NCBI RefSeq assembly: GCF_030551875.1
Contig: NZ_JAUOZU010000007.1
Span: forward strand, 372,001-436,000
Reading direction: 5' to 3'
Source: Fluviirhizobium alvei
GTDB taxonomy: Bacteria; Pseudomonadota; Alphaproteobacteria; Rhizobiales; Rhizobiaceae
DNA length: 64,000 nucleotides
Position numbers and translations under genes: made by a program. Below the pieces are notes generated by a model. It did no database searches and was not told the origin of the DNA. It saw only the letters and a list, made by a program, of their open reading frames with translations. Positions 21,876 through 37,951 of the stretch are shown in pieces. Position 1 is the first letter of the stretch, and the number at the start of each line of letters is the position of its first letter.

Positions 21876-22799
21876 TCAAGTCTGCATCAGCACATTCGCA
21901 GCCTTCACCGCAGCCGATGCCCGGTTCTCGACGCCGAGTTTAACATAGATCTGCTCGAGATGCTTGTTGACCGTGCGCGCCGACAGGCCGAGAATATCGC
22001 CGATATCCCGGTTGGATTTGCCCTTGGCGATCCAGACCAGAACCTCGGATTCCCGCCCGGTCAGCGCAAAGGTCTGCCGGAGCTTTTCGCCATCATTCTG
22101 TTGCGTCTGTCCTGTAAGACGGAAGAGATGCTCGTCCTGACCGATGGATCCCAGAAACGAGAGGACCAGAACCGCCCCGCCCGTTGCCTCGATCGATATG
22201 CCCTGGTCCTGCGGCTGGCTGCCATTCTCGCGCTGCAAGAGCCAGGCGCGGATCCGGCCAGACACGGTTTCAAGCCCGTCGTCCGAACCCATGGCAGCGT
22301 TGATCAGGCGGACGGCCTGCGGCGTCGACCACAGCGTCTGGCCGTTGCGTCGAGTGGCGAGCAGATGGCGACCCGCCGCATCGAGCGCCACACGCGCACT
22401 TTGCGCCGAACGAGCATTGGCAAGATGGACGCGGATACGGGCCCGCAACTCTTCGATATTGATCGGCTTGGTCAGGTAATCGACGCCACCCGCACCCAAT
22501 GCCCGCACGACATGTTCGGTTTCCGTAAGACCCGTCATGAAGATTACCGGAATCTGCGCCACCGACGGCAGCGCCTTGAGCCGCGCGCAGGTTTCGAACC
22601 CATCCATGGCCGGCATGACGGCATCGAGCAGGATCAGATCCGGCGTGATTCGTTCGACGATCGAAAGCGCGGAGGATCCCGACGTCGCGATCAGCACCGA
22701 ATAGCCCGATTGCTCGAGCGCGTCGGTGAGAAAACTCAACGAGTCCGGGCTGTCATCGACCAGAAGAACGATATCGCGGGGTTGCTGGGCAGGGTTCAT
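21876..22799 (-). CDS. LuxR-family two-component response regulator
   Basis: A 307-residue regulator. The N-terminal receiver (residues 8-125) has the acidic pair D15/D16, phospho-acceptor D59 (LILLDAVMPAMDG) and K111 (YLTKPINIEEL). A central segment (about 135-235) resembles a small PAS-like domain. The C-terminal LuxR helix-turn-helix is LTGRESEVLVWIAKGKSNRDIGDILGLSARTVNKHLEQIYVKLGV (read here as motif parts LTGRESEVL, KSNRDIGDILGLS and TVNKHLEQIYVKL). Its ATG overlaps the stop of the NCS1-kinase gene by four bases (ATGA), so the two are translationally coupled and surely work as a pair. Likely target is the divergent urt promoter, by position only. Confidence 0.9.
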   Translation of the reverse strand: MNPAQQPRDIVLLVDDSPDSLSFLTDALEQSGYSVLIATSGSSALSIVERITPDLILLDAVMPAMDGFETCARLKALPSVAQIPVIFMTGLTETEHVVRALGAGGVDYLTKPINIEELRARIRVHLANARSAQSARVALDAAGRHLLATRRNGQTLWSTPQAVRLINAAMGSDDGLETVSGRIRAWLLQRENGSQPQDQGISIEATGGAVLVLSFLGSIGQDEHLFRLTGQTQQNDGEKLRQTFALTGRESEVLVWIAKGKSNRDIGDILGLSARTVNKHLEQIYVKLGVENRASAAVKAANVLMQT

Positions 22800-25700
22800 G
22801 ACACCGCCTCCTCGCGGGCAATCTTGCGCAGGTCTGCCAGAAAGGCATCGATGTTGAAAGCCCGCACATGGGCCGACATGACTTCGGCAAAATGCCGGTT
22901 ATCCGGCTCCTTGGCGAGTTCCGCCAGTTTTGCCTCGATGCCGCGGACATAGCCGATCTCGCCGAGCCGGATCAACTCCTCGACATGGTGGATGCCGGGC
23001 GTCCGCATCTCGCCCCCCTGCTCGTCCATCGTTTCCATCGGGGCGATTGCATAGACCCATTCGAAACCGAGCCAGGCGGCCAGACGATCATGCAACTGGC
23101 GAAAATCCACCGGCTTGGCAAGGGCATCGTTATGACCATCCGAACCGCTCGGCGCCATACCGCTGTCACCGACATTGGCCGACAGCATGATGATGGGTGC
23201 AGTTTGACCGAGATCGCGCAGACGGCTCACCAGTTGCCAGCCGTTCATGCCGGGCATCGAGATGTCGACGAGGAATATGTCGGGTCGACCGCCTTCGAGC
23301 AGCGTCAGGCATTCAGGACCGGACGAGGCCGTCAACACCACGAAATCGAGCGGCACCAAAGCTTCGCGCATCAATTCGCGATGCTCCTCATTGTCATCGA
23401 CCACCATGACCGTGCGACGCGGCCCGGAATAGGTGAGGATCTTGCGGTCCGGCGCCGGTGTCGCCGGTCGATCGAGCCCATAGAGCATGAGCTTGACCCG
23501 GAAGGTGGTGCCCCTGCCCTCTTCGCTGTCGACCCGGATTTCGCCGCCGAGCGTCTGGGTGAGGAGACGCGTGATGGTGAGACCAAGACCGAGGCCCGGC
23601 GCCAGTTGCGACTGGCTGCCCGATCCGCGCTGGAACGGTTCAAAGATCACCTCGAGATCCTCGCGCGATATGCCGGACCCGGTATCGCTGATCGAAAAAG
23701 TCGCGACCTGGTTACGATACTGGATCGCCAGCTCCACCCGGCCCCGCTCGGTATATTTGACCGCGTTAGTCAAGAGATTGATGAGGATCTGGCGCAGGCG
23801 CTTCTCATCGGCCCGCACATATTGCGGCAAAGCCGGATCGCGGCGCACCGAGAATTCGAGCCCCTTCGCTTCGGCCTGCGGCCGGATCATCCCGCTGATC
23901 TGCTCGAAGAAATCATGCGTGTTGATTTCGTTGGAATAGACCTGGAGCCGACCGGATTCGATCCGCGAGATATCGAGAAGACCATCGATGAGGCCGGAGA
24001 GATAATCGGCGCTGCGCTTGATCACCTTGATCGCGGAACGTTTGGTTTCCGGCACCTGTTCATCGCGTTCGAGAAGCTGGGCATAGCCAAGGACGGCATT
24101 CAGCGGCGTGCGCAGCTCATGGGTCAGTCCCACGACGTAACGGCTCTTGGCACGGTTGGCGGATTCCGCCACTTCCTTGGCCTGCTGCAGTGCTGCATCC
24201 GTCTTCTTGTGGGCGGCGATTTCCTTGAGCAGCAGCGTATTCTGGCGCGAGCTTTCCTCTTCGGCCACCACGCGGCTGTCATGGGCCAGCACGAAGAACC
24301 AGGCCGCGATGCCCGAGAGAATCGAAAAGACCAGAAAGACAACCCAGGTCGTGCGGTTGACGACATCGGCAGTCTCCGGCGACAGGTTTCCGGCCCGGAT
24401 GGCGACCATCCAGAGGATGAGACCGATGGCGGCAATGACCGTGAAGGTAATCAGAGAATAACGACCCAGACGGGTCGAAAGCTGCGCCAGAACCGGTTCC
24501 GGCAGAACCGCGCTTGCGACTTCGGCAACCTGGTAATTGAGCCGCGCCTTCGGCTTGCAGAGATCGTGACAGCGACTGTCGAGCGAGCAGCAGAGCGAAC
24601 AGATCGGCGCCGAATAGGCCGGGCACCAGGCCATGTCCTCCGGCTCGAAAGGATGTTCGCAGATCGAGCAGGTGATGGTGCTGAGGCTCTTCCACTGCCG
24701 GCGCGGCTTGCGGGCGAGGTAATACTTCCCATCCGTCGCCCAGGCGATCAGGGGCACGGTGATGAAGGCGACGATCGGCGCGATATAGATGGCAAGCGAG
24801 GCCGCATAGTCGCCGAACAGGCCGAAATGCGCCGAGAGCGCGATGGCCGCCGTGATCAGCATGCCGCCGAAGCCAACCGGATTGATATCATAGAGATGGG
24901 CGCGCTTGAACTCGATGCCCGGCGGCGACAGGCCAAGCGGCTTGTTGATGAAGAGATCGGCCGAAATCGTGCAGAGCCAGGCAGCGGCGATAATGGAGAA
25001 GACGCTCAGTGTTTCCTCAAGCAGCTTGTAGATGCCGAGTTCCATCAGAAGCAGCGCGATCGCCACATTGAAGAACAGCCAGATGACGCGGCCCGGATGC
25101 GAATGGGTGAGGCGCGAGAAGAAATTCGACCAGGCGAGCGACCCGGCATAGGCATTCATGACATTGATTTTCAGCTGCGACACCACCACGAAGGCTGCCG
25201 TCAGCACCAGCGCCACCGTATGGTTCGGCACCATATAGCCGAAGGCGGTCACATACATATGGGCCGGATCGGCGGCCTGATCGGCCGGAATGCCGGAACT
25301 GAGCGCGAGCACCACCAGAAAGGAGCCAGCGAGCAGTTTCGGCGCCCCCACCACCACCCAGCCCGGACCGGCCAGGAAACGCAGGAAGCGCTGCATCAGC
25401 GATGGCGGGCGATGATCCGCCGGCAGAAAGCGCAGGAAGTCGACCTGCTCGCCGATCTGCGACATCAGCGCCAGGATGACGGCGGATGCGGCGCCGAATT
25501 TTGCCAGATCAAAGGGCGCAATCGTGCCGATCTCGCCGGATTCCGCACCCTTGCCGGCAAAGCCGAGCCAGAGATCGAACTTCTGCCAGTCCGAAAAGGC
25601 AATGAAGATGAAGGGCAGGATGTTGAGGATGATCCAGACCGGCTGCGTGATGAGCTGGAACTTCGAAATCATCCGCACGCCGTAGGTAACGAGCGGGATG

Positions 25701-26179
25701 ACGGCCACCGCGCTGATGATATAGCCGAGCCAGAGTGGAACGCCGAACACCAGTTCGAGCGCACCCGTCATGATCGATGCTTCGATGGCAAAGAGGATGA
25801 AGGTGAAGCTCGCATAGATCAGCGATGTGAGCGTCGAGCCGATATAACCAAAGCCGGCTCCGCGCGTCAAAAGGTCGATATCGACGCCATGGCGGATCGC
25901 ATAGCGGCTGATCGGGATGCCGATGACAAGCAAGACGATCGAGGCAACGATGATGGCGAAAATGGCATTGGTGGTGCCGTAGGAGAGCGTGATCGTGCCG
26001 CCCACAGCTTCGAGCGCCAGAAAGGAAATCGCACCGATCGCCGTCTGCGAAATGCGGGCAGGCGAATACTGCCGGGCACTTTTGGCCGTAAAACGCAGCG
26101 CGTAATCTTCCAGCGTCTGGTCGGCGACCCAGCGATTGTAGTCGCGGCGGACGGGGATGATGCGCTGGCGTGCGGTCAT
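22796..26179 (-). CDS. NCS1-type permease fused to hybrid histidine kinase/receiver (transporter-like sensor)
   Basis: An 1127-residue fusion. Residues about 45-485 form a multi-helix permease of the purine-cytosine/allantoin (NCS1) kind. Residues 504-541 are a Cys-rich module (C504, C507, C519, C527, C530, C531, C537, C541). Two further helices follow at about 574-594 and 611-631, then a coiled coil. The HisKA domain has the H-box THELRTPLNAVLGYAQ (H687). The HATPase domain has N805 in NLLTNAVKY, the G1 box DTGSGIS, and GLGLGLTITRLL. The receiver (923-1036) has D972 in LVDISMPGMNG, and a helical tail ends the protein. Sensors built on transporter domains are known (for example CbrA with an SLC5 module); this one uses NCS1. 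Divergent from urtA and coupled to a LuxR regulator, it probably senses or transports a nitrogenous solute. The ligand is inference. Confidence 0.9.
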   Translation of the reverse strand: MTARQRIIPVRRDYNRWVADQTLEDYALRFTAKSARQYSPARISQTAIGAISFLALEAVGGTITLSYGTTNAIFAIIVASIVLLVIGIPISRYAIRHGVDIDLLTRGAGFGYIGSTLTSLIYASFTFILFAIEASIMTGALELVFGVPLWLGYIISAVAVIPLVTYGVRMISKFQLITQPVWIILNILPFIFIAFSDWQKFDLWLGFAGKGAESGEIGTIAPFDLAKFGAASAVILALMSQIGEQVDFLRFLPADHRPPSLMQRFLRFLAGPGWVVVGAPKLLAGSFLVVLALSSGIPADQAADPAHMYVTAFGYMVPNHTVALVLTAAFVVVSQLKINVMNAYAGSLAWSNFFSRLTHSHPGRVIWLFFNVAIALLLMELGIYKLLEETLSVFSIIAAAWLCTISADLFINKPLGLSPPGIEFKRAHLYDINPVGFGGMLITAAIALSAHFGLFGDYAASLAIYIAPIVAFITVPLIAWATDGKYYLARKPRRQWKSLSTITCSICEHPFEPEDMAWCPAYSAPICSLCCSLDSRCHDLCKPKARLNYQVAEVASAVLPEPVLAQLSTRLGRYSLITFTVIAAIGLILWMVAIRAGNLSPETADVVNRTTWVVFLVFSILSGIAAWFFVLAHDSRVVAEEESSRQNTLLLKEIAAHKKTDAALQQAKEVAESANRAKSRYVVGLTHELRTPLNAVLGYAQLLERDEQVPETKRSAIKVIKRSADYLSGLIDGLLDISRIESGRLQVYSNEINTHDFFEQISGMIRPQAEAKGLEFSVRRDPALPQYVRADEKRLRQILINLLTNAVKYTERGRVELAIQYRNQVATFSISDTGSGISREDLEVIFEPFQRGSGSQSQLAPGLGLGLTITRLLTQTLGGEIRVDSEEGRGTTFRVKLMLYGLDRPATPAPDRKILTYSGPRRTVMVVDDNEEHRELMREALVPLDFVVLTASSGPECLTLLEGGRPDIFLVDISMPGMNGWQLVSRLRDLGQTAPIIMLSANVGDSGMAPSGSDGHNDALAKPVDFRQLHDRLAAWLGFEWVYAIAPMETMDEQGGEMRTPGIHHVEELIRLGEIGYVRGIEAKLAELAKEPDNRHFAEVMSAHVRAFNIDAFLADLRKIAREEAVS

Positions 26180-26261
26180 ACGACTTCAACGGTCTCCGGA
26201 TTGCTCAATTTGGAAGCAACAATCGATATTGAATAATTTTCAGCCAGAAGCAACGGATTTC

Positions 26262-26358: not shown

Positions 26359-26378
26359 CATACGTCAAATGACGTATG
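26359..26378. promoter_or_regulatory. Perfect palindrome upstream of urtA (candidate operator)
   Basis: CATACGTCA-N2-TGACGTATG is a perfect 9+9 inverted repeat. It lies about 95 bases upstream of the urtA ATG in the divergent region shared with the sensor kinase. Its size and symmetry fit a dimeric regulator such as the adjacent LuxR-type protein. I saw no sigma-54 (TGGCAC-N5-TTGC) promoter here. Confidence 0.55.
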
Positions 26379-26472: not shown

Positions 26473-27762
26473 ATGAAACTGACGAAATTGGTCTCGAGCG
26501 CGCTTCTGGCCGGCATGATGTCCGCCACCGCGTTCCACGGTGCATTCGCAGCCGACGACACCATCAAGATCGGCGTCCTGCATTCGCTGTCCGGTACGAT
26601 GGCGATCTCCGAAACCACCCTCAAGGACGCCATGCTGATGCTCGTCGAAGAGCAGAACAAGAAGGGCGGCGTCCTCGGCAAGAAACTCGAAGCCGTCGTC
26701 GTCGACCCGGCTTCCGATTGGCCGCTGTTCGCCGAAAAGGCGCGCGACCTGATCGAAAAGGACAAGGTTGCCGCCGTGTTCGGTTGCTGGACCTCGTCCT
26801 CGCGCAAGTCGGTCCTGCCGGTGTTCGAAGAGCTGAACTCCATTCTCTTCTATCCGGTCCAGTACGAAGGCGAAGAATCCTCCCGCAACATCTTCTATAC
26901 CGGTGCGGCTCCGAACCAGCAGGCCATTCCGGCCGTCGATTACCTTGCCAACACCGAAGGTGTCGAGCGCTGGGTTCTTGCGGGCACCGACTATGTCTAT
27001 CCGCAGACGACCAACAAGATCCTGAAGGCCTACCTGATGTCCAAGGGCGTCAAGGAAGAGGACATCATGATCAACTACACGCCGTTCGGTCATTCCGACT
27101 GGCAGACGATCGTCTCCGACATCAAGAAGTTCGGCTCGGCCGGCAAGAAGACCGCTGTGGTCTCCACCATCAACGGTGACGCCAACGTACCGTTCTACAA
27201 GGAACTCGCCAACCAGGGCATCAAGGCCGAAGACATTCCGGTCGTCGCCTTCTCGGTCGGCGAAGAAGAGCTCGCCGGCCTCGACACCGGCCCGCTTGTC
27301 GGCCACCTGGCTGCCTGGAACTACTTCCAGTCCGTCGATGCTCCGGTCAATGCCGAGTTCATCAAGACCTGGCATGCCTACACCAAGAACGACAAGCGCG
27401 TGACCAACGACCCGATGGAAGCTGCCTATATTGGCTTCAACGCCTGGGTGAAGGCTGTCGAAGCTGCTGGTACGACCGACACGGATGCCGTTCTCGACTC
27501 GATCATCGGCGTCTCCGTGCCGAACCTCTCGGGCGGCACCTCCACCGTCATGCCGAACCACCACATTACCAAGCCGGTTCTCATCGGCGAAATCCAGGCT
27601 GATGGCCAGTTCGATATCGTCCAGCAGACCCCGTCGGTCGTCGGCGATGAATGGTCCGATTACCTGCCGGACTCCAAGGATCTGATCTCCGATTGGCGCA
27701 AGCCGATGTCGTGCGGCAACTTCAACGTCGTGACCGGCAAGTGCGGCGGCAAGGGCTCCTGA
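26473..27762 (+). CDS. urtA: Urea ABC transporter substrate-binding protein UrtA
   Basis: The periplasmic urea-binding protein of the high-affinity UrtABCDE importer. The 429-residue protein has signal peptide MKLTKLVSSALLAGMMSATAFHGAFA and a branched-chain-type binding fold: DDTIKIGVLHSLSGTMAISE, WTSSSRKSVLPVFEE, LFYPVQYEGEESSRNIFYTGA, NGDANVPFYKELANQG, and NDPMEAAYIGFNAWVKAVE. These blocks are specific to UrtA among amide-binding proteins. ATG 26473 has an AGGGG site. It is the first gene of the urt operon, followed by two stem-loops before urtB. Confidence 0.97.
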   Translation: MKLTKLVSSALLAGMMSATAFHGAFAADDTIKIGVLHSLSGTMAISETTLKDAMLMLVEEQNKKGGVLGKKLEAVVVDPASDWPLFAEKARDLIEKDKVAAVFGCWTSSSRKSVLPVFEELNSILFYPVQYEGEESSRNIFYTGAAPNQQAIPAVDYLANTEGVERWVLAGTDYVYPQTTNKILKAYLMSKGVKEEDIMINYTPFGHSDWQTIVSDIKKFGSAGKKTAVVSTINGDANVPFYKELANQGIKAEDIPVVAFSVGEEELAGLDTGPLVGHLAAWNYFQSVDAPVNAEFIKTWHAYTKNDKRVTNDPMEAAYIGFNAWVKAVEAAGTTDTDAVLDSIIGVSVPNLSGGTSTVMPNHHITKPVLIGEIQADGQFDIVQQTPSVVGDEWSDYLPDSKDLISDWRKPMSCGNFNVVTGKCGGKGS

Positions 27763-27821: not shown

Positions 27822-28039
27822 TCGTTTCCAAGACCTGACTGACTGGACCCGATATGTTACACCAAGCGTCGATGATAGGAACCGATTGCGCCGGAGCGAT
27901 TTTGGTTTCCGGCGAGGAGAAAACCACAGTCGGACCCAAAGGTCCGGCGCGGATTTTCAACGATGTCCGGAGGGCAAAAACGTCCGGTCCTTCGGATTGG
28001 CCGGACATCCTTCCCCGACTTTGTCGCAATCCTCTACCG

Positions 28040-29743
28040 ATGCCTTTGCATCGCTCTCCGGTCTGCTCCGCGTCGGATGACGGCGTCCGGTCCCACGCAA
28101 TTGCTTCCTATCATCGAGGCTTGGTATTTCGCGCCTTTCAAACCGTCTTTCTGGTATTTGCCCTTCTTTTCGTGCCCTTTATCGCCGCTGCCAGCGCAGC
28201 AGACGATCTTAAGACCCAGATCAACGCTTTAGCCACCGCGAAGCTGCCCGATATGCCGGAGAAGATCGAGGCCCTGGCAGCGACCGGCGATCCCGCCGTC
28301 GTTCCGCTTCTGGAAGCGCTTGCCGAAGGCAATCTTTACTTCCGCAAATCCGATAATTTCGTCTTTCTGACCAAGGCCTCCGGTTCAAATCTCTCGCTTG
28401 TCGACCCGGTATCGGGCGAAACCGTCGGCGAGGAAGCCAAGGGGGCGCTGAGCAAGATCAAGGTCAACAACAATCTCCGCCGAACCATTCGCTCCCTGCT
28501 CGGCGGGCTGACCTTGTTGAGCCCGGACCGCACTGTGCGCCTTTCGGCCGCCGATGCAGTGCTGAAATCTCCGAGCGCCGAAAATCTCGGGTTGCTCGAA
28601 ACAGCCATCGCAAAGGAAACGGATACCGTCGTCAGGATGCGGATGGAAACAGCCCGCGCTGTATCGATCCTCGGCTCCGATCGCATCATCGATGAGAAGC
28701 GCCAGGCCATCGAGATGATCAGCGACAAGATCGGCGGTCGTGACGCGGCCGGTATTCTGATGGGCGCATCCGCAACCATCGATCCTGCACTCAAGGCGGA
28801 TCTCGATGCAGCGATCTCGCGGATCGAAAGCACCCAGCAGCTCTGGGACATGACCCAGAACGTCTGGTACGGCCTGTCGCTGGGTTCGGTGCTTCTGCTC
28901 GCCGCGATCGGTCTCGCCATCACCTTCGGCGTCATGGGCATCATCAACATGGCGCATGGCGAAATGGTCATGCTCGGCGCTTATTCCACCTTCGTGGTGC
29001 AGGATATCATCCGCTCGAATGCACCCAACCTCTTCGACTGGTCACTGGCGATCGCCCTGCCGGTCGCCTTCCTCGTCACTGCCATCGTCGGCCTTGCCAT
29101 CGAGCGCGGCGTGATCCGCTTTCTCTATGGACGTCCACTCGAAACGCTGCTCGCCACCTGGGGCATATCGCTGATCCTCCAGCAGGCGATCCGTTCCATC
29201 TTCGGACCGACAAACCAGGAAGTCGGCAATCCGTCCTGGATGTCGGGTTCCTTCCCGCTCGGCGGCATGACGATTACCTGGAACCGCATGTGGATCGTTG
29301 CATTCTCGCTCTCGGTCTTCTTCGCGCTTCTGTTCCTGATGAAGAAATCCGCCTTCGGCCTGCAGATGCGCGCCGTCACCCAGAACCGTCGCATGGCTTC
29401 CTCGATGGGCATCCGCACACCCTGGGTGGATGCCTTCACCTTCGCGCTCGGCTCCGGCATTGCCGGCATTGCCGGCGTGGCACTGTCCCAGATCGACAAT
29501 GTGTCGCCGAACCTCGGCCAGTCCTACATCATCGACAGTTTCATGGTCGTGGTGTTCGGCGGCGTCGGCAATCTCTGGGGCACATTCGTCGGCGCACTCT
29601 CGCTCGGCATTCTCAACAAGTTCCTCGAACCGACCGTGGGCGCCGTGCTCGGCAAGATTCTCGTTCTGGTTCTCATCATCCTTTTCATCCAGAAGCGCCC
29701 CCGTGGTCTCTTCGCACTCAAGGGAAGGGCGATCGAAGCATGA
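28040..29743 (+). CDS. urtB: Urea ABC transporter permease UrtB
   Basis: An inner-membrane permease of the LivH type for urea. After a signal-like helix (TVFLVFALLFVPFIAAASA) comes a long periplasmic domain of about 200 residues typical of UrtB (LVDPVSGETVG, NNNLRRTIRSLLGGLTLLS). Permease helices then begin at VWYGLSLGSVLLLAAIGLAITFGVMGIINMAHGE. I list the ATG at 28040 (567 residues). A TTG at 28121 gives a standard signal peptide (MVFRAFQTVFLV) and 540 residues, the usual length, so the true start may be there. The frame stays open upstream to 27854 without family-like sequence. The end overlaps urtC by four bases. Confidence 0.93.
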   Translation: MPLHRSPVCSASDDGVRSHAIASYHRGLVFRAFQTVFLVFALLFVPFIAAASAADDLKTQINALATAKLPDMPEKIEALAATGDPAVVPLLEALAEGNLYFRKSDNFVFLTKASGSNLSLVDPVSGETVGEEAKGALSKIKVNNNLRRTIRSLLGGLTLLSPDRTVRLSAADAVLKSPSAENLGLLETAIAKETDTVVRMRMETARAVSILGSDRIIDEKRQAIEMISDKIGGRDAAGILMGASATIDPALKADLDAAISRIESTQQLWDMTQNVWYGLSLGSVLLLAAIGLAITFGVMGIINMAHGEMVMLGAYSTFVVQDIIRSNAPNLFDWSLAIALPVAFLVTAIVGLAIERGVIRFLYGRPLETLLATWGISLILQQAIRSIFGPTNQEVGNPSWMSGSFPLGGMTITWNRMWIVAFSLSVFFALLFLMKKSAFGLQMRAVTQNRRMASSMGIRTPWVDAFTFALGSGIAGIAGVALSQIDNVSPNLGQSYIIDSFMVVVFGGVGNLWGTFVGALSLGILNKFLEPTVGAVLGKILVLVLIILFIQKRPRGLFALKGRAIEA

Positions 29744-30906
29744 TTACCGGCTTTCTTCTTCGCGCACTCGACCGGCGCATCACCATTGCCATCGCCATCA
29801 TCCTCGCCGTGGCCGTGCTGGTGCCCGCTTCCAACCTGCTGCTGCCGACCGATAGCACCTTCCGCATCCCCACCTATGTCATGTCCCTCATGGGCAAGTA
29901 TCTGACCTATGCGCTTCTCGCGCTGACGCTGGACCTGGTCTGGGGCTATTGCGGCATCCTCTCGCTGGGCCACGCGGCCTTCTTCGCGCTGGGCGGCTAT
30001 GCGATGGGCATGTATCTGATGCGCCAGATCGGCCCGCGCGGCGTCTATGGCGACCCGGTCCTGCCCGATTTCATGGTGTTCCTGAACTGGAAGGAACTGC
30101 CCTGGTTCTGGCATGGCATGGATATGTTCTGGTTCGCCATGCTCATGGTTCTCGTCGTGCCCGGCCTGCTCGCCTTCATTTTCGGTTGGTTCGCTTTCCG
30201 CTCTCGCGTCAACGGCGTCTATCTCTCGATCATCACGCAAGCGATGACCTATGCGCTGCTCCTCGCTTTCTTCCGCAACGATATGGGTTTCGGCGGCAAC
30301 AACGGCCTCACCGATTTCAAGGATATTCTCGGCTTCTCGATCCAGGCGGATGGAACGCGTGCGACCCTGTTTGCCATGTCTGCGCTGATGCTGGCGCTCT
30401 GCCTGCTCCTGTCCTCGGCAATCGTCCGCTCGAAATATGGCAAGGTGCTGATCGGCGTCCGCGATGCCGAAAGCCGCACCCGCTTCCTCGGTTATCGGGT
30501 CGAGAACATCAAGCTCTTCACCTTCGTGGTGTCGGCCATGATGGCGGGCATTGCCGGCGCCCTGTTCGTCCCCCAGGTCGGCATCATCAATCCGGGTGAA
30601 TTCGAGCCCGGCAATTCGATCGAAGTCGTCATCTGGACGGCGGTGGGCGGCCGCGGCACGCTTATCGGCCCGATCATCGGTGCGGTGCTCGTCAATGCCG
30701 GCAAGACCTTCTTCACCGGTGCCTTCCCCGAATTCTGGCTGTTTGCGCTGGGCGGACTGTTCGTCCTCGTGACGCTCTTCCTGCCCAAGGGCATCGTCGG
30801 CACCTGGCAGCAGTTCATGGCGCGCCGGAAGGAATATGCCGATGAAGCATCCAAGGAAAAACAGGCGGCATCCCTTGCCGCAGCCGAGCCGGGAGCAGCC
30901 GAATGA
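29740..30906 (+). CDS. urtC: Urea ABC transporter permease UrtC
   Basis: The second permease, LivM type. The 388-residue protein has about ten helices with signature blocks LDLVWGYCGILSLGHAAFFALGGY, GNNGLTDFKDILGF, VLIGVRDAESRTRFLGYRVE and VIWTAVGGRGTLIGPIIGAVLVN. The start ATG lies in the ATGA overlap with urtB, and the end overlaps urtD in the same way. The C-terminus is a charged Lys/Glu/Ala tail. Length and order are normal for UrtABCDE. Confidence 0.97.
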   Translation: MITGFLLRALDRRITIAIAIILAVAVLVPASNLLLPTDSTFRIPTYVMSLMGKYLTYALLALTLDLVWGYCGILSLGHAAFFALGGYAMGMYLMRQIGPRGVYGDPVLPDFMVFLNWKELPWFWHGMDMFWFAMLMVLVVPGLLAFIFGWFAFRSRVNGVYLSIITQAMTYALLLAFFRNDMGFGGNNGLTDFKDILGFSIQADGTRATLFAMSALMLALCLLLSSAIVRSKYGKVLIGVRDAESRTRFLGYRVENIKLFTFVVSAMMAGIAGALFVPQVGIINPGEFEPGNSIEVVIWTAVGGRGTLIGPIIGAVLVNAGKTFFTGAFPEFWLFALGGLFVLVTLFLPKGIVGTWQQFMARRKEYADEASKEKQAASLAAAEPGAAE

Positions 30907-31670
30907 ACAGTGTCGTCAACGCAGATCTCAAGCCGCGCAGCATTCTCTATCTCGATGGCGTATCGGTAGCCTTTGATGGTTTCAAGGCACTGAACTCGCT
31001 CTCCTTCGTCGTCGAACCCGGCGAGCTGCGTGCCATCATCGGCCCGAACGGTGCCGGAAAGACGACGATGATGGATATCATCACCGGCAAGACGCGGCCG
31101 GATTCGGGAGAGGTCTATTTCAATGGCGAAATCGACCTCACGAAAAGGGATGAGGCGGCAATCGCCCAGCTCGGCATCGGCCGCAAGTTCCAGAAGCCCA
31201 CCGTTTTCGAAAGCCATACAGTCTGGGACAATATCGAACTGGCGCTCAACCGCAAACGCGGTGTCTTTGCCACTCTCTTCTACACACTGACAGCCAAGGA
31301 CCGGGCCCGTATCGAGGAAATCCTCGAAACCGTGCGGCTCACCCATCGCAAGGATGATTATGCCGCCAATCTCAGCCACGGCCAGAAACAGTGGCTGGAA
31401 ATCGGCATGCTTCTCGCGCAGGAACCGAAACTCCTGCTGGTCGACGAGCCCGTGGCCGGTATGACCGATGCGGAAACCTCTGAAACCGCGATCCTTCTCA
31501 AGGAGATCGCCAAAACGCGCTCGGTCGTGGTGGTTGAGCATGACATGGGGTTCATCCGCGATCTCGGCGTCAAGGTCACCTGCCTCGCCGAAGGATCGGT
31601 GCTGGCCGAAGGCTCGATCGATTTTGTTTCGAATGACCCAAAAGTCATCGAAAACTATCTGGGACGGTGA
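30903..31670 (+). CDS. urtD: Urea ABC transporter ATPase UrtD
   Basis: The LivG-type ATPase of the urea importer. The 255-residue protein has Walker A GPNGAGKTT, the Q-loop region GIGRKFQKPTVFE, signature motif LSHGQ (LSHGQKQWLEIGM), Walker B LLLVDEP, and the switch histidine in VVVVEHDMGFI. LSHGQ instead of LSGGQ is usual for UrtD. It overlaps urtC by four bases. Unusually, a 172-codon gene separates it from urtE. Confidence 0.97.
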   Translation: MNSVVNADLKPRSILYLDGVSVAFDGFKALNSLSFVVEPGELRAIIGPNGAGKTTMMDIITGKTRPDSGEVYFNGEIDLTKRDEAAIAQLGIGRKFQKPTVFESHTVWDNIELALNRKRGVFATLFYTLTAKDRARIEEILETVRLTHRKDDYAANLSHGQKQWLEIGMLLAQEPKLLLVDEPVAGMTDAETSETAILLKEIAKTRSVVVVEHDMGFIRDLGVKVTCLAEGSVLAEGSIDFVSNDPKVIENYLGR

Positions 31671-31746: not shown

Positions 31747-32265
31747 ATGCCTTTTATCGGTTTCATATTGGTGGTGGCGGCGGGAGCTGCCGTATGGTGG
31801 TGGCGCCTGAAGATGCTCAAGGAAGTCGGAAGCGAAATGATCGATTCGGTCGAACGCATGCGCGGCGCCTATAAGCGCCGGCAATACCGCAAGGCAGCGG
31901 AAGCAGCTCCACTGACTTCGATCAAGGATCCCGCAATTGCTGCCGTAACCTTTTTTATGGTGCTGGCCGAAGACAAGCCGACGGGTATGGACGAGGCCAG
32001 AACGCTTATCCGATCGCGCATGAACGGTATCATAGCTGCACGTGACATGGACGATGTGCTCGTCTTCGCCGAATGGACAGCGAAACGTGTCGTCAGCCTT
32101 GAAGATCCGGTCCGGCGTTTTCGCGATCTCTGGCTCGCAAACCTGAATTTCGATGAGCGTCGCCAACTGGTCGGCATCGCCGATGAGGTCATCCGCATTG
32201 CGGGCGAACCGACCACAGAACAAAACAATGCCTTGCAGGCCCTCAGGAGGGTCCTGCTGAACTGA
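31747..32265 (+). CDS. Membrane-anchored TerB-like protein between urtD and urtE
   Basis: A 172-residue protein starting MPFIGFILVVAAGAAVWWWRL, one membrane helix at the N-terminus followed by a basic stretch (YKRRQYRKAAEA). The C-terminal part (about 115-170) has the pattern FDERRQLVGIADEVIRIAGEPTTEQNNALQALRRVL, which resembles TerB/DnaJ-like helical domains by its LVGIADEVIRIAGE block. An AGGGAG site precedes the ATG. It has 76 bases upstream and only 10 bases before urtE, so it is co-transcribed with the transporter. It is not one of the five known Urt subunits. Function unknown; a cytoplasmic-facing accessory at the membrane is a guess. Confidence 0.8.
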   Translation: MPFIGFILVVAAGAAVWWWRLKMLKEVGSEMIDSVERMRGAYKRRQYRKAAEAAPLTSIKDPAIAAVTFFMVLAEDKPTGMDEARTLIRSRMNGIIAARDMDDVLVFAEWTAKRVVSLEDPVRRFRDLWLANLNFDERRQLVGIADEVIRIAGEPTTEQNNALQALRRVLLN

Positions 32266-32275
32266 GAGGGAAGCC

Positions 32276-32971
32276 ATGCTGACTGTGGATAACGCCAACC
32301 TGCATTACGGTGCGGCACAAGCGCTGCGCGGAATTTCGATCAAGGCCGAGATGGGCAAGATCACTTGCGTGCTCGGTCGCAACGGTGTCGGCAAGTCCTC
32401 GCTGCTGCGCGCCGTCACCGGTCAGCATCCCTTAAGCGCTGGCAAGATCAGCTTCAACGACACGTTGTTGAACGGCATGGCGCCCTACAATCGAGCCAAG
32501 CTCGGCATCGGCTATGTGCCGCAGGGACGCGAAATCTTTCCGCTTCTGACGGTGAAGGAAAATCTCGAAACCGGCTTTGCGCCGCTCACGCGCAATGAGC
32601 GCAGCATTCCGGATGATATTTTCAGTCTCTTCCCGATCCTGCAAACCATGCTCGGGCGTCGCGGCGGCGATCTTTCCGGCGGCCAGCAGCAGCAACTGGC
32701 CATCGGTCGTGCGCTTGTCACGCGGCCGAAGATCCTGGTGCTCGACGAGCCGACCGAAGGTATCCAGCCCTCGATCATCAAGGATATCGGGCGGGCCATC
32801 CAGTATCTGCGCGACTCCACCGGCATGGCAATTCTGCTTGTGGAACAATATCTTGATTTCTGCCGCGAACTCGCCGACCATGTCTATATCATGGACCGCG
32901 GCGAGATCGTGCATGAAGGGGCTGCCGAAACGCTCGATACGCCGGAAGCGCGCCGTCACCTGACGGTGTGA
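32276..32971 (+). CDS. urtE: Urea ABC transporter ATPase UrtE
   Basis: The LivF-type ATPase of the urea importer. The 231-residue protein has Walker A GRNGVGKSSLLRAV, the block GIGYVPQGREIFPLLTV, signature LSGGQQQQLAIGRAL, Walker B ILVLDEPTEGIQPSI, and H-loop region LLVEQYLDF. The start has an AGAGGGAAGCC site. It runs directly into ureD (GTG/TGA context at 32968-32971), so urea import and hydrolysis are one transcript. Confidence 0.97.
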   Translation: MLTVDNANLHYGAAQALRGISIKAEMGKITCVLGRNGVGKSSLLRAVTGQHPLSAGKISFNDTLLNGMAPYNRAKLGIGYVPQGREIFPLLTVKENLETGFAPLTRNERSIPDDIFSLFPILQTMLGRRGGDLSGGQQQQLAIGRALVTRPKILVLDEPTEGIQPSIIKDIGRAIQYLRDSTGMAILLVEQYLDFCRELADHVYIMDRGEIVHEGAAETLDTPEARRHLTV

Positions 32972-32991: not shown

Positions 32992-33819
32992 GTGAACATC
33001 ATGACGACCGCGTCGGCCATCCAGCCGCAACGCACGCGAGGAACGGGGCGGCTGGCGACCAAAAAGGTTGCCGGCAGAACCCGGCTCGACATCTTCTATC
33101 AGGAGGGGGCCGCGAAGATCCGCATGCCCGAATCCTTCGATGGTCGACTGGAAGCCGTCCTGATCAACACATCCGGCGGACTGACCGGCGGCGACCGCGT
33201 AAACTGGCAGGTCGATGCCGGTGCCGGGACCCATGTGACGGTGACGACGCAGGCCTGCGAGCGGGTCTACAAATCCTCCGGCGGCCATGCCGAGGTGAAT
33301 TCCACCCTGTCGGTCGGTGCAGGCGCGACACTCCATTGGCTGCCGCAGGAAACGATCCTGTTCGACCAGGGTGCGCTGCGCCGGAGGCTCGATGTCGAGC
33401 TTGCCGAAGATGCCTGCTTCATCGGGCTCGAGGCCGTGCTTCTGGGCCGCAAGGCGATGGGCGAAACCGTGGCCTCCGGCCAGTTTCGCGATCGCTGGCG
33501 TATCCGCCGGGCTGGGCAGCTGATCCATGCCGAAGAACTGGATCTGTCGGGGGCGATCGATCAGAGGATGGCGTCGCGGGCGACGCTCGCCGGCCACCAG
33601 GCCTTTGCGACCCTGCTCTATTGCGCACCCGACGGTGAGGCCAAACTCGAGAGGATCCGGACACTGGCGCAGGGGCAGATCGCCGGTGCAAGCCATTGGA
33701 AGGACAAGCTCGTGGTGCGGATCATCGCCTCGGAAGGGTTCGAGCTCAGAAAAATCCTGATCCCGATAATTTCGCTCTTGCGAAATGGCGATGCGCCGCC
33801 GAAAGTGTGGCATCTCTGA
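32992..33819 (+). CDS. ureD: Urease accessory protein UreD
   Basis: A scaffold chaperone that binds apo-urease and with UreF and UreG inserts nickel. About 275 residues, with family blocks INTSGGLTGGDRVNWQV, TTQACERVYKS, LHWLPQETILFDQGALRR and FIGLEAVLLGRKAMGE. I chose the GTG at 32992 because AGGA lies six bases upstream. Alternatives are GTG 32968, overlapping the urtE stop, and ATG 33001. It precedes ureA by 83 bases. Confidence 0.96.
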   Translation: MNIMTTASAIQPQRTRGTGRLATKKVAGRTRLDIFYQEGAAKIRMPESFDGRLEAVLINTSGGLTGGDRVNWQVDAGAGTHVTVTTQACERVYKSSGGHAEVNSTLSVGAGATLHWLPQETILFDQGALRRRLDVELAEDACFIGLEAVLLGRKAMGETVASGQFRDRWRIRRAGQLIHAEELDLSGAIDQRMASRATLAGHQAFATLLYCAPDGEAKLERIRTLAQGQIAGASHWKDKLVVRIIASEGFELRKILIPIISLLRNGDAPPKVWHL

Positions 33820-34215: not shown

Positions 34216-34521
34216 ATGATTCCCGGTGAACTGATCCCCGCCAAGGGCGAAATCGAACTCAATGCCGGCCTGCCGACGGTGACGATCGATGTCGCCAACA
34301 CAGGTGACCGGCCGATCCAGGTCGGAAGCCATTATCATTTCTTCGAAACCAACAAGGGGCTCGATTTCGACCGCGACAAGGCGCGCGGCATGCGGCTCGA
34401 CATTCCGTCGGGAACCGCCGTCCGTTTCGAGCCCGGCCAGAAGCGTACGGTGACGCTGATCCCGCTTTCGGGCAAGCGCGAGGTCTATGGTTTCCGCCAG
34501 CTGGTGATGGGCAAACTGTGA
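34216..34521 (+). CDS. ureB: Urease beta subunit UreB
   Basis: The 101-residue beta subunit. It starts [18 protein letters not shown] and carries the conserved [21 protein letters not shown] and [33 protein letters not shown]. The ribosome site GAGGAGG is strong. The next gene downstream is not ureC, as in the simplest operons, but a secreted LprI-type protein. Confidence 0.98.
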
Positions 34522-34541: not shown

Positions 34542-34955
34542 ATGAAATGGACATTGGTTGCCGCTGTTTGGCTAAGCCTTTCGGCGAGCGCTGCGTGGGC
34601 CGAAGAAGCGGCGCCGCTGCTCTGCAAGGATGCGGTCACCGAGGCCGAGATGATCGAATGCGCCCATAACGAGTTCGAGATCGAAGACAAGAAGCTGAAC
34701 GCCCAGTGGGCCGAGACCAAGAAGGCCGTCTCCGAATGGGATGCGGCAATCGAGGACGAGGGATCGCGCGGCGCCGTCAAGGCGCTCTTGAAGTCGCAGC
34801 GTGCCTGGATCGATTATCGTGACGGCCATTGCGATGCCGATGGCTTCTCGGTCTATGGCGGCACGATGCGGCCTTCGGTGATCGAACTCTGCCTTGCAGA
34901 CCTGACGCGCAAGCGGACAGCCGAACTCAAAGATCTGATCGACGGGATCCAGTGA
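34542..34955 (+). CDS. Secreted LprI/DUF1311-family protein (copy 1)
   Basis: A 137-residue exported protein with signal peptide MKWTLVAAVWLSLSASAAWA. The mature part has the LprI pattern: LCKDAVTEAEMIECAHNEFEIEDKKLNAQW, RAWIDYRDGHCDADG, and a final cysteine in IELCLADLTRKRTAELKDLI. Four mature cysteines suggest two disulfides in the periplasm. LprI-type proteins include lysozyme inhibitors, but most members have no known role. The start ATG 34542 follows GGGAG; an upstream GTG at 34518 is in frame. The second copy follows three bases later. Its job in a urease operon is unknown. Confidence 0.85.
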   Translation: MKWTLVAAVWLSLSASAAWAEEAAPLLCKDAVTEAEMIECAHNEFEIEDKKLNAQWAETKKAVSEWDAAIEDEGSRGAVKALLKSQRAWIDYRDGHCDADGFSVYGGTMRPSVIELCLADLTRKRTAELKDLIDGIQ

Positions 34956-34957
34956 CG

Positions 34958-35410
34958 ATGACCAGAAACATCTTGGGGCTTGGGATCGGCAAACTCGGCA
35001 GTGCGGTGGCTCTGCTCATGGCATTGTCGGCAGCCCCCGCTTTTGCCGAGGAAGCGCCCGAAGTCGATTGCGAAAACGCGATGGCGCAGCAGGACATGAA
35101 CTATTGCGCCGAAATGGATTTCGAGAAATCGGATGCCGAACTCAACCGCACCTATAAAAAGGCCATGAAAGCGGCCCGCGATGCCGACAAATCCGCAGCC
35201 GAGATGGGCCCCGACTATGTCGGCGCGGTCGATGCGCTGAAGAAGGCACAGCGTGCCTGGATCGACTATCGCGACGGCCATTGCACCGGCGTCGGCTTTG
35301 AGGCGCGCGGCGGATCGATGGAGCCCATGCTGGTCTCCGGCTGCAAGGACCAGCTCACCCAGGCCCGCACCAAGGAACTGCAGGAACTGATCTCCGGTAC
35401 TGGAAACTGA
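34958..35410 (+). CDS. Secreted LprI/DUF1311-family protein (copy 2)
   Basis: A 150-residue paralogue of the preceding gene, starting two bases after its stop. Signal peptide MTRNILGLGIGKLGSAVALLMALSAAPAFA, then VDCENAMAQQDMNYCAEMDF, AQRAWIDYRDGHCTGVGFEARGG and SGCKDQLTQARTKELQEL. The shared RAWIDYRDGHC block and the same four-cysteine spacing show tandem duplication. The divergence between copies is large, so the duplication is old. It lies 190 bases before the GT29-like gene. Confidence 0.85.
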   Translation: MTRNILGLGIGKLGSAVALLMALSAAPAFAEEAPEVDCENAMAQQDMNYCAEMDFEKSDAELNRTYKKAMKAARDADKSAAEMGPDYVGAVDALKKAQRAWIDYRDGHCTGVGFEARGGSMEPMLVSGCKDQLTQARTKELQELISGTGN

Positions 35411-35600
35411 ACCATGCTCCACCGCTGCGAACAGGACGGGATGACAGATCGGGCTAACGGGCCCGCACTTGTCGTCACGACTGATCGCAAGATAGCGGTA
35501 GGCGACGATTGCCTGCGCTTTCGCCCTTTATCTGAACCCCTCTCCTGCCAACCGCGTATAACCATGAACAAAAACATGGAACCGGTTGGAGAGAGCTGAG

Positions 35601-36209
35601 ATGGGACGCAGGATCATGGTGGTGGGTAACGGGCAGATCGAAGCGGGCATAGGCAACAGAATCGACGCGGCCGATCTTGTCGTTCGTTTCAACGATTGCC
35701 GCTCGTTTGGCGCTGGCGGTGTCAAGACCAGCATCGTCGCCGTTTGCAATACGGGTCGTCCTGGCAAGCGGATGCTGGAAGAGAAGGACTGGCGCGAAAA
35801 CCGGGCCGTTCTGGAGGCCGACGCCATCTGGGGCGTTCGCGATCCGGAAAAATTCAGCGCCATGCGCGGGGTGCTGGCGACCACCCATCCTGAACTTGAT
35901 GATTTCTGCGACGACTACACCGACGGTTTCATTGAATTCTGTCGGTCGTCCGACAAACAGTTCCATGGCATTTCCGCAGCCACTTATGACCAGGTCGATG
36001 ACCTTTTGGCCCAGTACCGACCGGTGCCCTACGTCACGCCGTCGAGTGGTGCCATTGTTGTTGCGGAACTGCTCAACAACCATTGCCAGAATGACGATGA
36101 ACTGACCATTGCCGGCTTCAGCCACGAAGGCTGGGAGTGGCATCCCTGGCAGGCCGAAAAGGCCTGGATGGATGCGCTTGCCAGCTCGGGCCGCCTCAAA
36201 CGACTATAG
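35601..36209 (+). CDS. Urease operon accessory protein, GT29/sialyltransferase-like
   Basis: A 202-residue soluble protein. The opening [30 protein letters not shown] resembles the L-motif of family-29 glycosyltransferases (VGNxG-G-x-ID-D-VVRFN). [17 protein letters not shown] fits the next block, and [16 protein letters not shown] the S-motif region (TPSSG-ivvael). Proteins like this are annotated as urease operon accessory proteins in rhizobia, but I know of no biochemical role. Start ATG 35601 with a GGAGAGAG site. It precedes ureC by 29 bases. Whether it still transfers sugars or is a re-used fold cannot be told here. Confidence 0.75.
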
Positions 36210-36238: not shown

Positions 36239-37951
36239 ATGTCCTATAAAATGTCCCGCGCCGCCTATGCCTCGATGTTCGGCCCAACCACCGGCGACAA
36301 GCTCCGGCTCGCCGATACGGAACTGTTCGTGGAGGTGGAGAAGGATTTCACGACCTATGGCGAGGAAGTGAAGTTCGGTGGCGGCAAGGTCATTCGCGAT
36401 GGCATGGGACAAAGCCAGGTGACACGCGCCAATGGCGCCGTCGATACGGTCATCACCAATGTGCTGATCATCGACCATTGGGGTATCGTGAAAGCCGATG
36501 TGGGCCTGAAGGATGGCCGTATCGCCGCAATCGGCAAGGCCGGCAATCCAGACACACAGCCGGGTGTCAACATCATCGTAGGTCCCGGCACCGAAGCCAT
36601 CGCCGGCGAAGGCAAGATCCTCACCGCCGGCGGCATGGATAGCCACATCCATTTCATCTGCCCGCAGCAGATCGAGGAAGCCCTGATGAGCGGGCTGACC
36701 TGCATGCTGGGCGGCGGCACCGGCCCGGCCCATGGCACGCTTGCCACCACCTGCACGCCCGGCCCCTGGCATATCCAGCGGATGATCGAGGCGGCAGACG
36801 CCTTCCCGATGAACCTGGCCTTCGCCGGCAAGGGCAATGCGTCTCTTCCCGGCGCGCTCGAGGAAATGATCCTCGCCGGCGCTTCGGCGCTGAAACTGCA
36901 TGAGGACTGGGGCACCACGCCGGGGGCGATCGATTGCTGCCTGACGGTGGCCGATGAATATGACGTGCAGGTGATGATCCATACCGACACGCTCAACGAA
37001 AGCGGCTTCGTGGAGGATTCACTCGGCGCCATGAAGGGCCGCACCATTCACGCCTTCCATACCGAAGGTGCCGGCGGCGGCCATGCGCCGGATATCATCA
37101 AGGTCTGCGGGTCTCTCAATGTGATACCGTCGTCGACCAACCCGACGCGGCCCTACACGCTCAACACGCTCGCCGAACATCTCGACATGCTGATGGTCTG
37201 CCACCATCTGAGCCCGTCGATCCCGGAAGATATCGCCTTTGCCGAAAGCCGCATCCGCAAGGAAACGATCGCAGCCGAAGACATTCTGCACGATATGGGC
37301 GCCTTCTCGATCATTTCCTCCGATAGCCAGGCCATGGGTCGCGTCGGTGAAGTCGCCATCCGCACCTGGCAGACCGCCGACAAGATGAAGCGCCAGCGCG
37401 GTGCCCTGCCCGAGGAAAAGGGCGACAATGACAATGTCCGCGTCAAGCGTTACATTGCCAAATACACGATCAACCCGGCAATCGCGCATGGTCTGAGCCA
37501 CGAAATCGGTTCGGTGGAAGTCGGCAAGCGCGCCGATCTCGTGCTCTGGTCGCCGGCCTTCTTCGGCGTCAAGCCGGACATGGTGCTGCTGGGCGGCTCG
37601 ATCGCTGCCGCACCGATGGGCGATCCGAACGCCTCGATCCCGACCCCGCAGCCGGTTCACTATCGCCACATGTTCGGCGCATACGGCAAGGCCCGCACCA
37701 GTTCGTCGGTCACCTTTGTCAGCCAGGCTTCTCTCGATGCCGGTCTCGCCCAGAAGATCGGCGTGTCGAAACAGCTTCTCGCGGTGAAGAATACCCGTGG
37801 CGGCATTTCCAAGAAGTCGATGATCCACAACGACCTGACGCCGCATGTGGAAGTCGATCCGGAAACCTACGAAGTGCGGGCCGATGGCGTGCTGTTGACA
37901 TGCGAGCCGGCGACCGTTCTGCCGATGGCACAGCGCTATTTCCTTTTCTGA
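36239..37951 (+). CDS. ureC: Urease alpha (catalytic) subunit UreC
   Basis: The catalytic subunit, hydrolysing urea to ammonia and carbamate with a dinickel centre. The 570-residue protein has all active-site residues. Nickel-ligand histidines are H136 and H138 (MDSHIHF), K219 is the carbamylated lysine (LKLHEDWG), H248 and H274 are further ligands, and D362 is in SSDSQAMGR. The flap has C321 and H322 (MVCHHLSPS). The ATG at 36239 has an AGGAG site; the frame is open further upstream inside the previous gene. Cytoplasmic. Confidence 0.99.

Follow-up and report, generated by a model that had tools for sequence, protein, structure and literature searches.

Organization of the locus

The window, a stretch of 64,000 nucleotides from Fluviirhizobium alvei (Rhizobiales), contains a gene pair for a hybrid histidine kinase and a LuxR-type response regulator, which diverges from the urtABCDE and urease genes. 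The following features were identified.

22796..26179, minus strand: hybrid sensor kinase gene, 1127 aa, with an NCS1-type permease domain, an eight-cysteine (Cys8) module, two membrane helices, and HisKA, HATPase_c and receiver domains
24725..26179, minus strand: residues 1-485, NCS1-type permease domain, regarded as the sensory part
26009..26011, minus strand: E57 codon, first membrane helix (alignment of sensors with free-standing relatives)
24557..24670, minus strand: Cys8 module, residues 504-541, pattern C-x2-C-x11-C-x7-C-x2-CC-x5-C-x3-C
24284..24469, minus strand: two predicted membrane helices, approximately residues 571-632 (hydropathy, helix prediction)
23951..24148, minus strand: HisKA dimerisation/phosphoacceptor domain, residues 678-743, with H687 (Pfam and alignment)
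23486..23809, minus strand: HATPase_c domain, residues 791-898 (Pfam)
23081..23410, minus strand: receiver domain of the kinase, residues 924-1033, with D972 (Pfam and alignment)
21876..22799, minus strand: response regulator, 307 aa, with a receiver domain (residues 11-123, D59) and a LuxR/GerE domain (246-300, recognition-helix N278) (Pfam, alignment)
26359..26378 (core 26361-26376), no strand: palindrome CATACGTCAAATGACGTATG, predicted regulator-binding site, 96 nt from the core to the urtA ATG
26473..27762, plus strand: urtA, binding protein of the urea ABC transporter (family match)
27854..29743, plus strand: urtB; the permease part matches TIGR03409, start uncertain, alternative 28121
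29740..30906, plus strand: urtC (family match; longer frame 29290-30906)
30903..31670, plus strand: urtD (family match)
32276..32971, plus strand: urtE (family match)
32992..33819, plus strand: ureD
36239..37951, plus strand: ureC

The kinase is encoded by an open reading frame of 1127 codons without interruption. Its C-terminal half is an ordinary hybrid kinase: the HisKA, HATPase_c and receiver domains that define this class each score well over their Pfam cut-offs. A long helix is predicted between the two extra membrane helices and HisKA. All eight cysteines of the Cys8 module are invariant in 28 relatives, and no Pfam family matches the module in either the window protein or these relatives; judging from its sequence, the module probably binds metal. 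The regulator gene is the next one after the kinase gene and overlaps it by ATGA. Its product combines a receiver (Response_reg, 1.4e-29) with a GerE domain (3.9e-18), as do LuxR/NarL-type regulators. The original prediction had described the Cys-rich linker, HisKA with H687, the HATPase domain and the receiver with D972 in one frame, the ATGA coupling to a LuxR-type regulator, and the divergence from urtA, and all of these are confirmed.

The urt and urease genes show some peculiarities. A predicted gene of 164 codons (31771-32265) lies between urtD and urtE, and genes of similar length occupy the same place in two other loci (L003 and L026). Three predicted genes of 133, 152 and 197 codons (34554-36209) separate a ureB-like gene (34216-34521, assigned by eye) from ureC, which is an unusual interruption of a urease operon.

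Distribution, gene neighborhoods and free-standing relatives

Matches to the kinase were found in 63 of 199 genomes of the family, 63 of 249 genomes of the order, 21 of 337 genomes of the class, and 52 of 398 genomes of the phylum, in overlapping sets drawn evenly over groups. Four of the matches in the order are weak ones to free-standing permeases, leaving 59. Most likely a urea-responsive transceptor system, the kinase/regulator pair is widespread in Pseudomonadota. The plasmid collection contains 525 records matching the N-terminal query, 342 of them from Klebsiella, including a few free-standing permeases or misfiled chromosomes. Nearly all strong matches are encoded in a single frame exceeding 1000 codons. 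One clade has kinases of about 880-910 codons that lack the receiver, judging by length and match range.

Three types of gene neighborhoods can be described. The first type comprises the kinase, the LuxR-type regulator and urtABCDE, with or without urease. In the second type, the kinase pair is accompanied by a UrtA-like binding protein, ABC transporter genes, formamidase FmdA, a zinc-ribbon FmdB-like protein and, sometimes, an aliphatic amidase. In the third type, the shorter kinase is accompanied by formamidase and an AmiS/UreI channel, and the regulator is OmpR-type. In the seven loci of the shorter-kinase clade (L150, L151, L167-L170 and L278), the OmpR-type regulator replaces the LuxR pair, and six of them contain a receiver-kinase gene.

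Among 92 diverse loci (all loci of the wider sets minus eight free-standing permeases), 90 have genes for urea transport, urease or formamidase/amide transport no more than about 10 kb away: 76 have a UrtA/FmdD-type binding protein, seven have formamidase without the binding protein, and seven have urease or UrtC; none of these genes was seen in the other two. These loci are related by descent, so the counts are not independent. The two loci without urea or amide neighbors (L283 and L286) belong to genomes that have urtA elsewhere. Of the 80 closest loci, 73 contain urtA inside the fetched stretch; seven lack it within 10 kb, two of them (L007 and L015) having urtA about 13 kb away. Four loci outside the class, all from one family (L249, L263, L275 and L277), contain urease and no urt genes near the kinase. 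Likewise, no urt or fmd ABC genes were found near the kinase in the seven formamidase/UreI loci. Urease, formamidase, aliphatic amidase and urea transport are represented among those neighbors that could be identified, whereas genes of purine or allantoin metabolism are not.

In a quick tree of 114 proteins, the seven neighborhood labels require 16 changes, compared to 53.9 for shuffled labels, and the urea-type gene sets appear at several separate places.

The large Klebsiella variicola plasmid pX39-1 (L327) has a homologous kinase divergent from urtABCDE and formamidase, with a one-mismatch copy of the palindrome between them. This cluster, whose kinase is 50% identical to the one considered here, is similar to the UTS cluster (UrtABC/AmiF) of Klebsiella pneumoniae CG307. 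The paper on CG307 deals with the transporter and the formamidase, and a term search of it found neither "histidine kinase" nor "two-component" (PMC13060141).

Free-standing relatives of the permease domain show similar associations. Five of the seven examined are encoded near the same kinds of genes, two in urease operons and three near formamidase. In Klebsiella, the permease gene follows ureDABCEG; in Acinetobacter, it precedes ureEFG and ureDABC; in Moraxella and Tsukamurella, it is beside or near formamidase. In Methylovirgula, the genes for formamidase, kinase, regulator, permease (L366:7944-9593) and amidase form a row. The two Streptomyces relatives have no urease or amidase neighbors in view (L365 by annotation, L329 by frame list only). 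Six of the seven end with a CxxC...CSLC tail; at the C-terminus of the Klebsiella permease, this CxxC..CSLC is a form of the Cys module. Annotated at present as a cytosine permease, that chromosomal protein (L328:6941-8548) shares 40% identity with the sensor domain and is a possible urea permease.

More distant free-standing NCS1 permeases (L172, L173 and L259) adjoin AmiC/AmiR-type genes; L172 also has a hydantoinase B neighbor, L259 a carbon-nitrogen hydrolase neighbor, and the proteins of L172 and L173 end in CxxC...CxxC tails. In an Acinetobacter pittii plasmid (L330), about one third of the query matches a permease stretch beside the ISAba22 transposase gene, near ureC.

The same tree, whose root depends on a single very long branch, places the free-standing permeases among the sensors, next to the formamidase/UreI clade. 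We see an even chance that these proteins constitute an unrecognized NCS1 branch of permeases for urea and short-chain amides, inside which a receptor line, marked by the full Cys8 module, two helices, the kinase and a fixed E57, has moved several times between amide and urea gene sets. Given such moves, the family would offer a natural series for finding the determinants of urea versus amide recognition.

The permease domain and its putative ligand

By homology and predicted fold, the first approximately 490 residues of the kinase are a divergent NCS1-type permease. The sensor domain is 40% identical to protein P0002 over 524 columns, and P0002 itself scores 38.1 bits against the PF02133 cut-off of 23.5; thus, there is full-length homology to proteins above this cut-off. 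A profile match has an E-value of 3.6e-39 over 452 columns. The best structural matches of the predicted fold (approximately residues 27-515, low model confidence) are Mhp1 and CodB, with 14-15% identity in the structural alignment. A transporter domain with a predicted LeuT fold (the low-confidence model resembling Mhp1 and CodB) thus precedes the kinase core in one polypeptide. The original prediction of an NCS1-type permease as the input of the hybrid kinase is supported.

Neither the window protein nor any of 28 relatives reaches the Pfam gathering cut-off of PF02133, and the permease domain reaches no Pfam or NCBIfam model. A PDB sequence search with the N-terminal domain gave nothing useful, and a profile of 28 sensors had no match among PDB sequences at E 1. 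Residues 1-568 of the 28 relatives gave no Pfam match of any kind at E 0.01; SLC5/SSF and STAC are thus unmatched there, and so is PF02133. The PDB profile match used for residue mapping came from an alignment that included free-standing permeases, so it was used for that purpose alone and not counted in support of homology.

The hydantoin site of Mhp1 includes two sandwiching tryptophans and Asn318. In the profile alignment, the tryptophan positions correspond to L129 and A233 of the window protein, while Asn318 is kept as N342 in helix 8. In most aligned rows, the two stacking positions hold Leu or Phe and Ala, Gly, Ser or Thr, respectively. The original prediction had named loss of the NCS1 substrate-site residues as evidence against it; the aromatic pair is indeed lost but N342 is kept, so the objection applies by half. 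A polar core (E133, Q241, E244, Q245, D247, K337, N339 and N342) is fixed across the sensors and free-standing relatives, as would fit a preserved binding pocket. Five positions separate the two groups without exception, and E57 is the only charged one among them: position 57 is Glu in 106 of 106 aligned sensors, compared to Phe in six and Gln in one of the seven free-standing relatives. M341 was considered as a general mark of urea systems and rejected, being fixed only in 30 urt-type rows of the order and replaced by T or A in other urea-type clades; no residues that change together across all urea-type clades were found in the alignment.

Fused transporter kinases with SLC5 or Amt inputs are already known. 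The SLC5-STAC histidine kinase systems include CbrA/CbrB, CrbS/CrbR and RpuS/RpuR. CrbS is a hybrid kinase, and its LuxR-type partner CrbR depends on an imperfect inverted repeat at the genes for acetate use (PMC5715377, excerpt); RpuS/R regulates a pyruvate symporter (PMC9100948, excerpt). The protein described here resembles CbrA, CrbS and RpuS in the fusion of a transporter domain to a histidine kinase. It appears to differ in the input, NCS1-type instead of SLC5; in the connection, a Cys8 module and two helices instead of STAC (plus PAS in CbrA); and in the likely ligand, urea or amides instead of histidine, acetate or pyruvate. In the ammonium sensor kinase Ks-Amt5, a family of nutrient transporters has likewise supplied the input through which a kinase senses a nitrogen source; however, this input is an Amt domain, with no PAS, HAMP or STAC linker (PMC5764959). 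In AmsS/AmsR of Acinetobacter baumannii, compared by description only, the hybrid kinase has 14 predicted membrane helices, and a LuxR-type regulator is likewise encoded downstream, but the system affects the proton gradient and alternative metabolism (PMC10112286, excerpt). Mhp1 (hydantoin) and CodB (cytosine) share the predicted fold, but they are free-standing transporters, and the aromatic sandwich is lost in the window protein.

The gene neighborhoods suggest urea as the ligand in the window's system and formamide or short-chain amides in the sister clades, and loss of the aromatic pair with retention of the helix-8 asparagine fits a small ligand without a ring. We consider it probable that the gene pair encodes a transceptor two-component system that responds to urea by activating urt. 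By analogy with CbrA, CrbS and Ks-Amt5, the NCS1-type domain, a member of the putative urea/short-chain-amide permease branch, would bind urea in the window's part of the family, and binding would alter its permease-like conformation. This change would travel via the Cys8 module, the two extra membrane helices and the long helix to the kinase core. H687 would then be phosphorylated and the phosphate passed to D59 of the regulator, with the kinase's own receiver (D972) acting as a modulator or relay. Sister systems beside formamidase and amide-transport genes would play the same role for formamide or acetamide.

A variant of this scheme, compatible with it except for the nature of the signal, is a working urea importer that senses flux rather than binding. 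Such dual function has a precedent in CbrA of Pseudomonas, which has both transport and kinase activities (PMC7096432 and PMC13022988, excerpts), and the core polar residues are kept in the window protein. On the other hand, Ks-Amt5 lost transport on becoming a sensor (PMC5764959, excerpt), and the presence of Glu at position 57 in all sensors and in none of the free-standing relatives looks as if the site had changed. We regard the importer variant as possible but doubtful.

The permease domain could also bind no nutrient at all and report, through protein contact, the state of the Urt ABC transporter or the nitrogen supply, as contact sensing is known for other kinases, e.g., DctA-DcuS (PMC5703999, excerpt). 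This is improbable, since the four urease loci and the seven formamidase/UreI loci have no urt or fmd ABC genes found near the kinase, and since the polar core shared with free-standing relatives fits a preserved pocket.

Even less plausible is the ligand initially proposed, a product of purine breakdown (for instance, allantoin, uric acid or hydantoin), with urea uptake as one of the outputs. NCS1 and NCS2 transporters of Pseudomonas aeruginosa do carry nucleobases and allantoin (PMC11633122, excerpt), and one distant free-standing relative adjoins the hydantoinase B gene mentioned above. However, 90 of the 92 diverse loci contain urt, urease, amidase or formamidase genes, the identified neighbors of the kinase include no purine or allantoin genes, and the hydantoin-stacking tryptophans are replaced in most rows, in the window protein by L129 and A233. 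This part of the original prediction is not supported.

The original prediction knew of no characterized member of the family, and we found none in the open-access full-text literature, which leaves most subscription papers outside. The same literature yielded no dedicated bacterial two-component sensor for urea and no mention of NCS1 as a kinase input, the Cys8 linker, the urea/amide assignment or the palindrome. Soil, sea and the urinary tract are all environments where much of the nitrogen supply comes as urea. If urea sensing by the transceptor is correct, NCS1 joins SLC5 and Amt as transporter families turned kinase inputs, a urea/amide permease branch is predicted within a family known for nucleobases, and a function can be offered for many proteins whose present annotation says no more than 'ATP-binding protein' or 'hybrid sensor histidine kinase'. 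It would also provide a defined promoter site and testable residues, namely E57, E133, Q241-Q245 and N342 of the sensor and N278 of the regulator. Methylovirgula, with a sensor and its free-standing sister permease side by side, is a ready system for comparing receptor and transporter.

The response regulator and the palindrome upstream of urtA

The gap between the kinase gene and urtA contains a palindrome, TACGTCA-NN-TGACGTA. Its core TACGTCANNTGACGTA occurs with zero, one and two mismatches in 16, 62 and 21, respectively, of 137 distinct kinase/binding-protein intergenic regions; these remained from 178 after removal of identical ones and represent only loci with a divergent binding-protein gene within 700 bases. 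The observed number of regions with at most two mismatches, 99 of 137, compares with 0.1 expected from shuffles. By target, such sites precede urtA in 73 of 77 regions and fmdD in 26 of 60. Of the fmdD-type regions, 34 of 60 have at least three mismatches, and many of them carry a TACGC variant.

The presence of the conserved site depends on the kinase gene. Among distinct urtA promoters of kinase-bearing loci, 105 of 115 have the site with at most two mismatches and 109 of 115 with at most three; the six failing the latter threshold (L254, L269, L273, L282, L285 and L288) are all outside the order. Among these loci, Sinorhizobium meliloti is represented by strain 2011 (L367), whose pSymB carries the kinase, the regulator and urtA, the last preceded by a two-mismatch site. 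In contrast, at up to three mismatches the site occurs in none of 30 urtA promoters from kinase-free genomes of the same family or order. These controls derive from 42 kinase-free genomes among the genomes listed, 31 with a UrtA match and 30 with promoters read. Thus, the link of the kinase pair to urt is stronger than the original prediction could show. Control of the urea genes, which it had proposed, is backed for urt by the conserved palindrome and the kinase-free control, while for urease the evidence is adjacency alone.

When loci lack a directly divergent urtA within 700 bases, the site still precedes this gene in 34 of 40 promoters. Thirty-three of these 34 sites belong to the order, at 90-115 nt from urtA; of the seven promoters outside the order, one has a site with at most two mismatches. 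Five of the six promoters without the site have at least four mismatches. In all seven loci with urease or UrtC and without the binding protein, a site with at most two mismatches is absent from the fetched stretch.

In the window's genome, the palindrome is the only site with fewer than two mismatches; at up to two mismatches there are three sites, versus seven for a reversed control pattern. In a blind search of 11 further genomes, the reversed control was often equally frequent at two mismatches; the best site preceded urtA or fmdD in seven of them (G014, G100, G386, G815, G896, G905 and G953), including two urtA copies located 11-13 kb from the kinase. G154 and G1086 had several two-mismatch sites, including the one at the target, and G365 and G789 had none at the target.

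The recognition helix of the regulator covaries with the half-site. A half-site with C at base 5 (TACGC instead of TACGT) accompanies eight of the nine regulators with Asp or Thr at residue 278, versus 16 of 83 with N, in a comparison that ignores descent and is carried mainly by two clades. Such a correlation is expected if the LuxR-type regulator reads the palindrome. In the proposed urea system, the phosphorylated regulator would bind TACGTCAAATGACGTA, 96 nt before urtA, and activate urtABCDE and possibly also the downstream urease genes. The least likely alternative is that the palindrome belongs to another urt regulator and the kinase pair is a mere neighbor: the site goes with urtA, not with the kinase gene, and a palindrome by itself names no regulator, but the site is absent from the 30 kinase-free promoters, is common to the urt and fmd systems, both of which have the kinase/regulator pair, and covaries with the recognition helix.

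A sigma-70-like match at 26210 was judged to be no evidence. One-mismatch sites outside the expected context were observed in G100 and G154 (L313 and L314), with no urea or amide genes seen around them, save a weak UrtA/UrtC similarity in L313 (27-28% identity). Four loci that lack urtA nearby (L005, L007, L008 and L009, position 9909) have a two-mismatch copy 76 nt before the kinase gene, which may reflect self-regulation.
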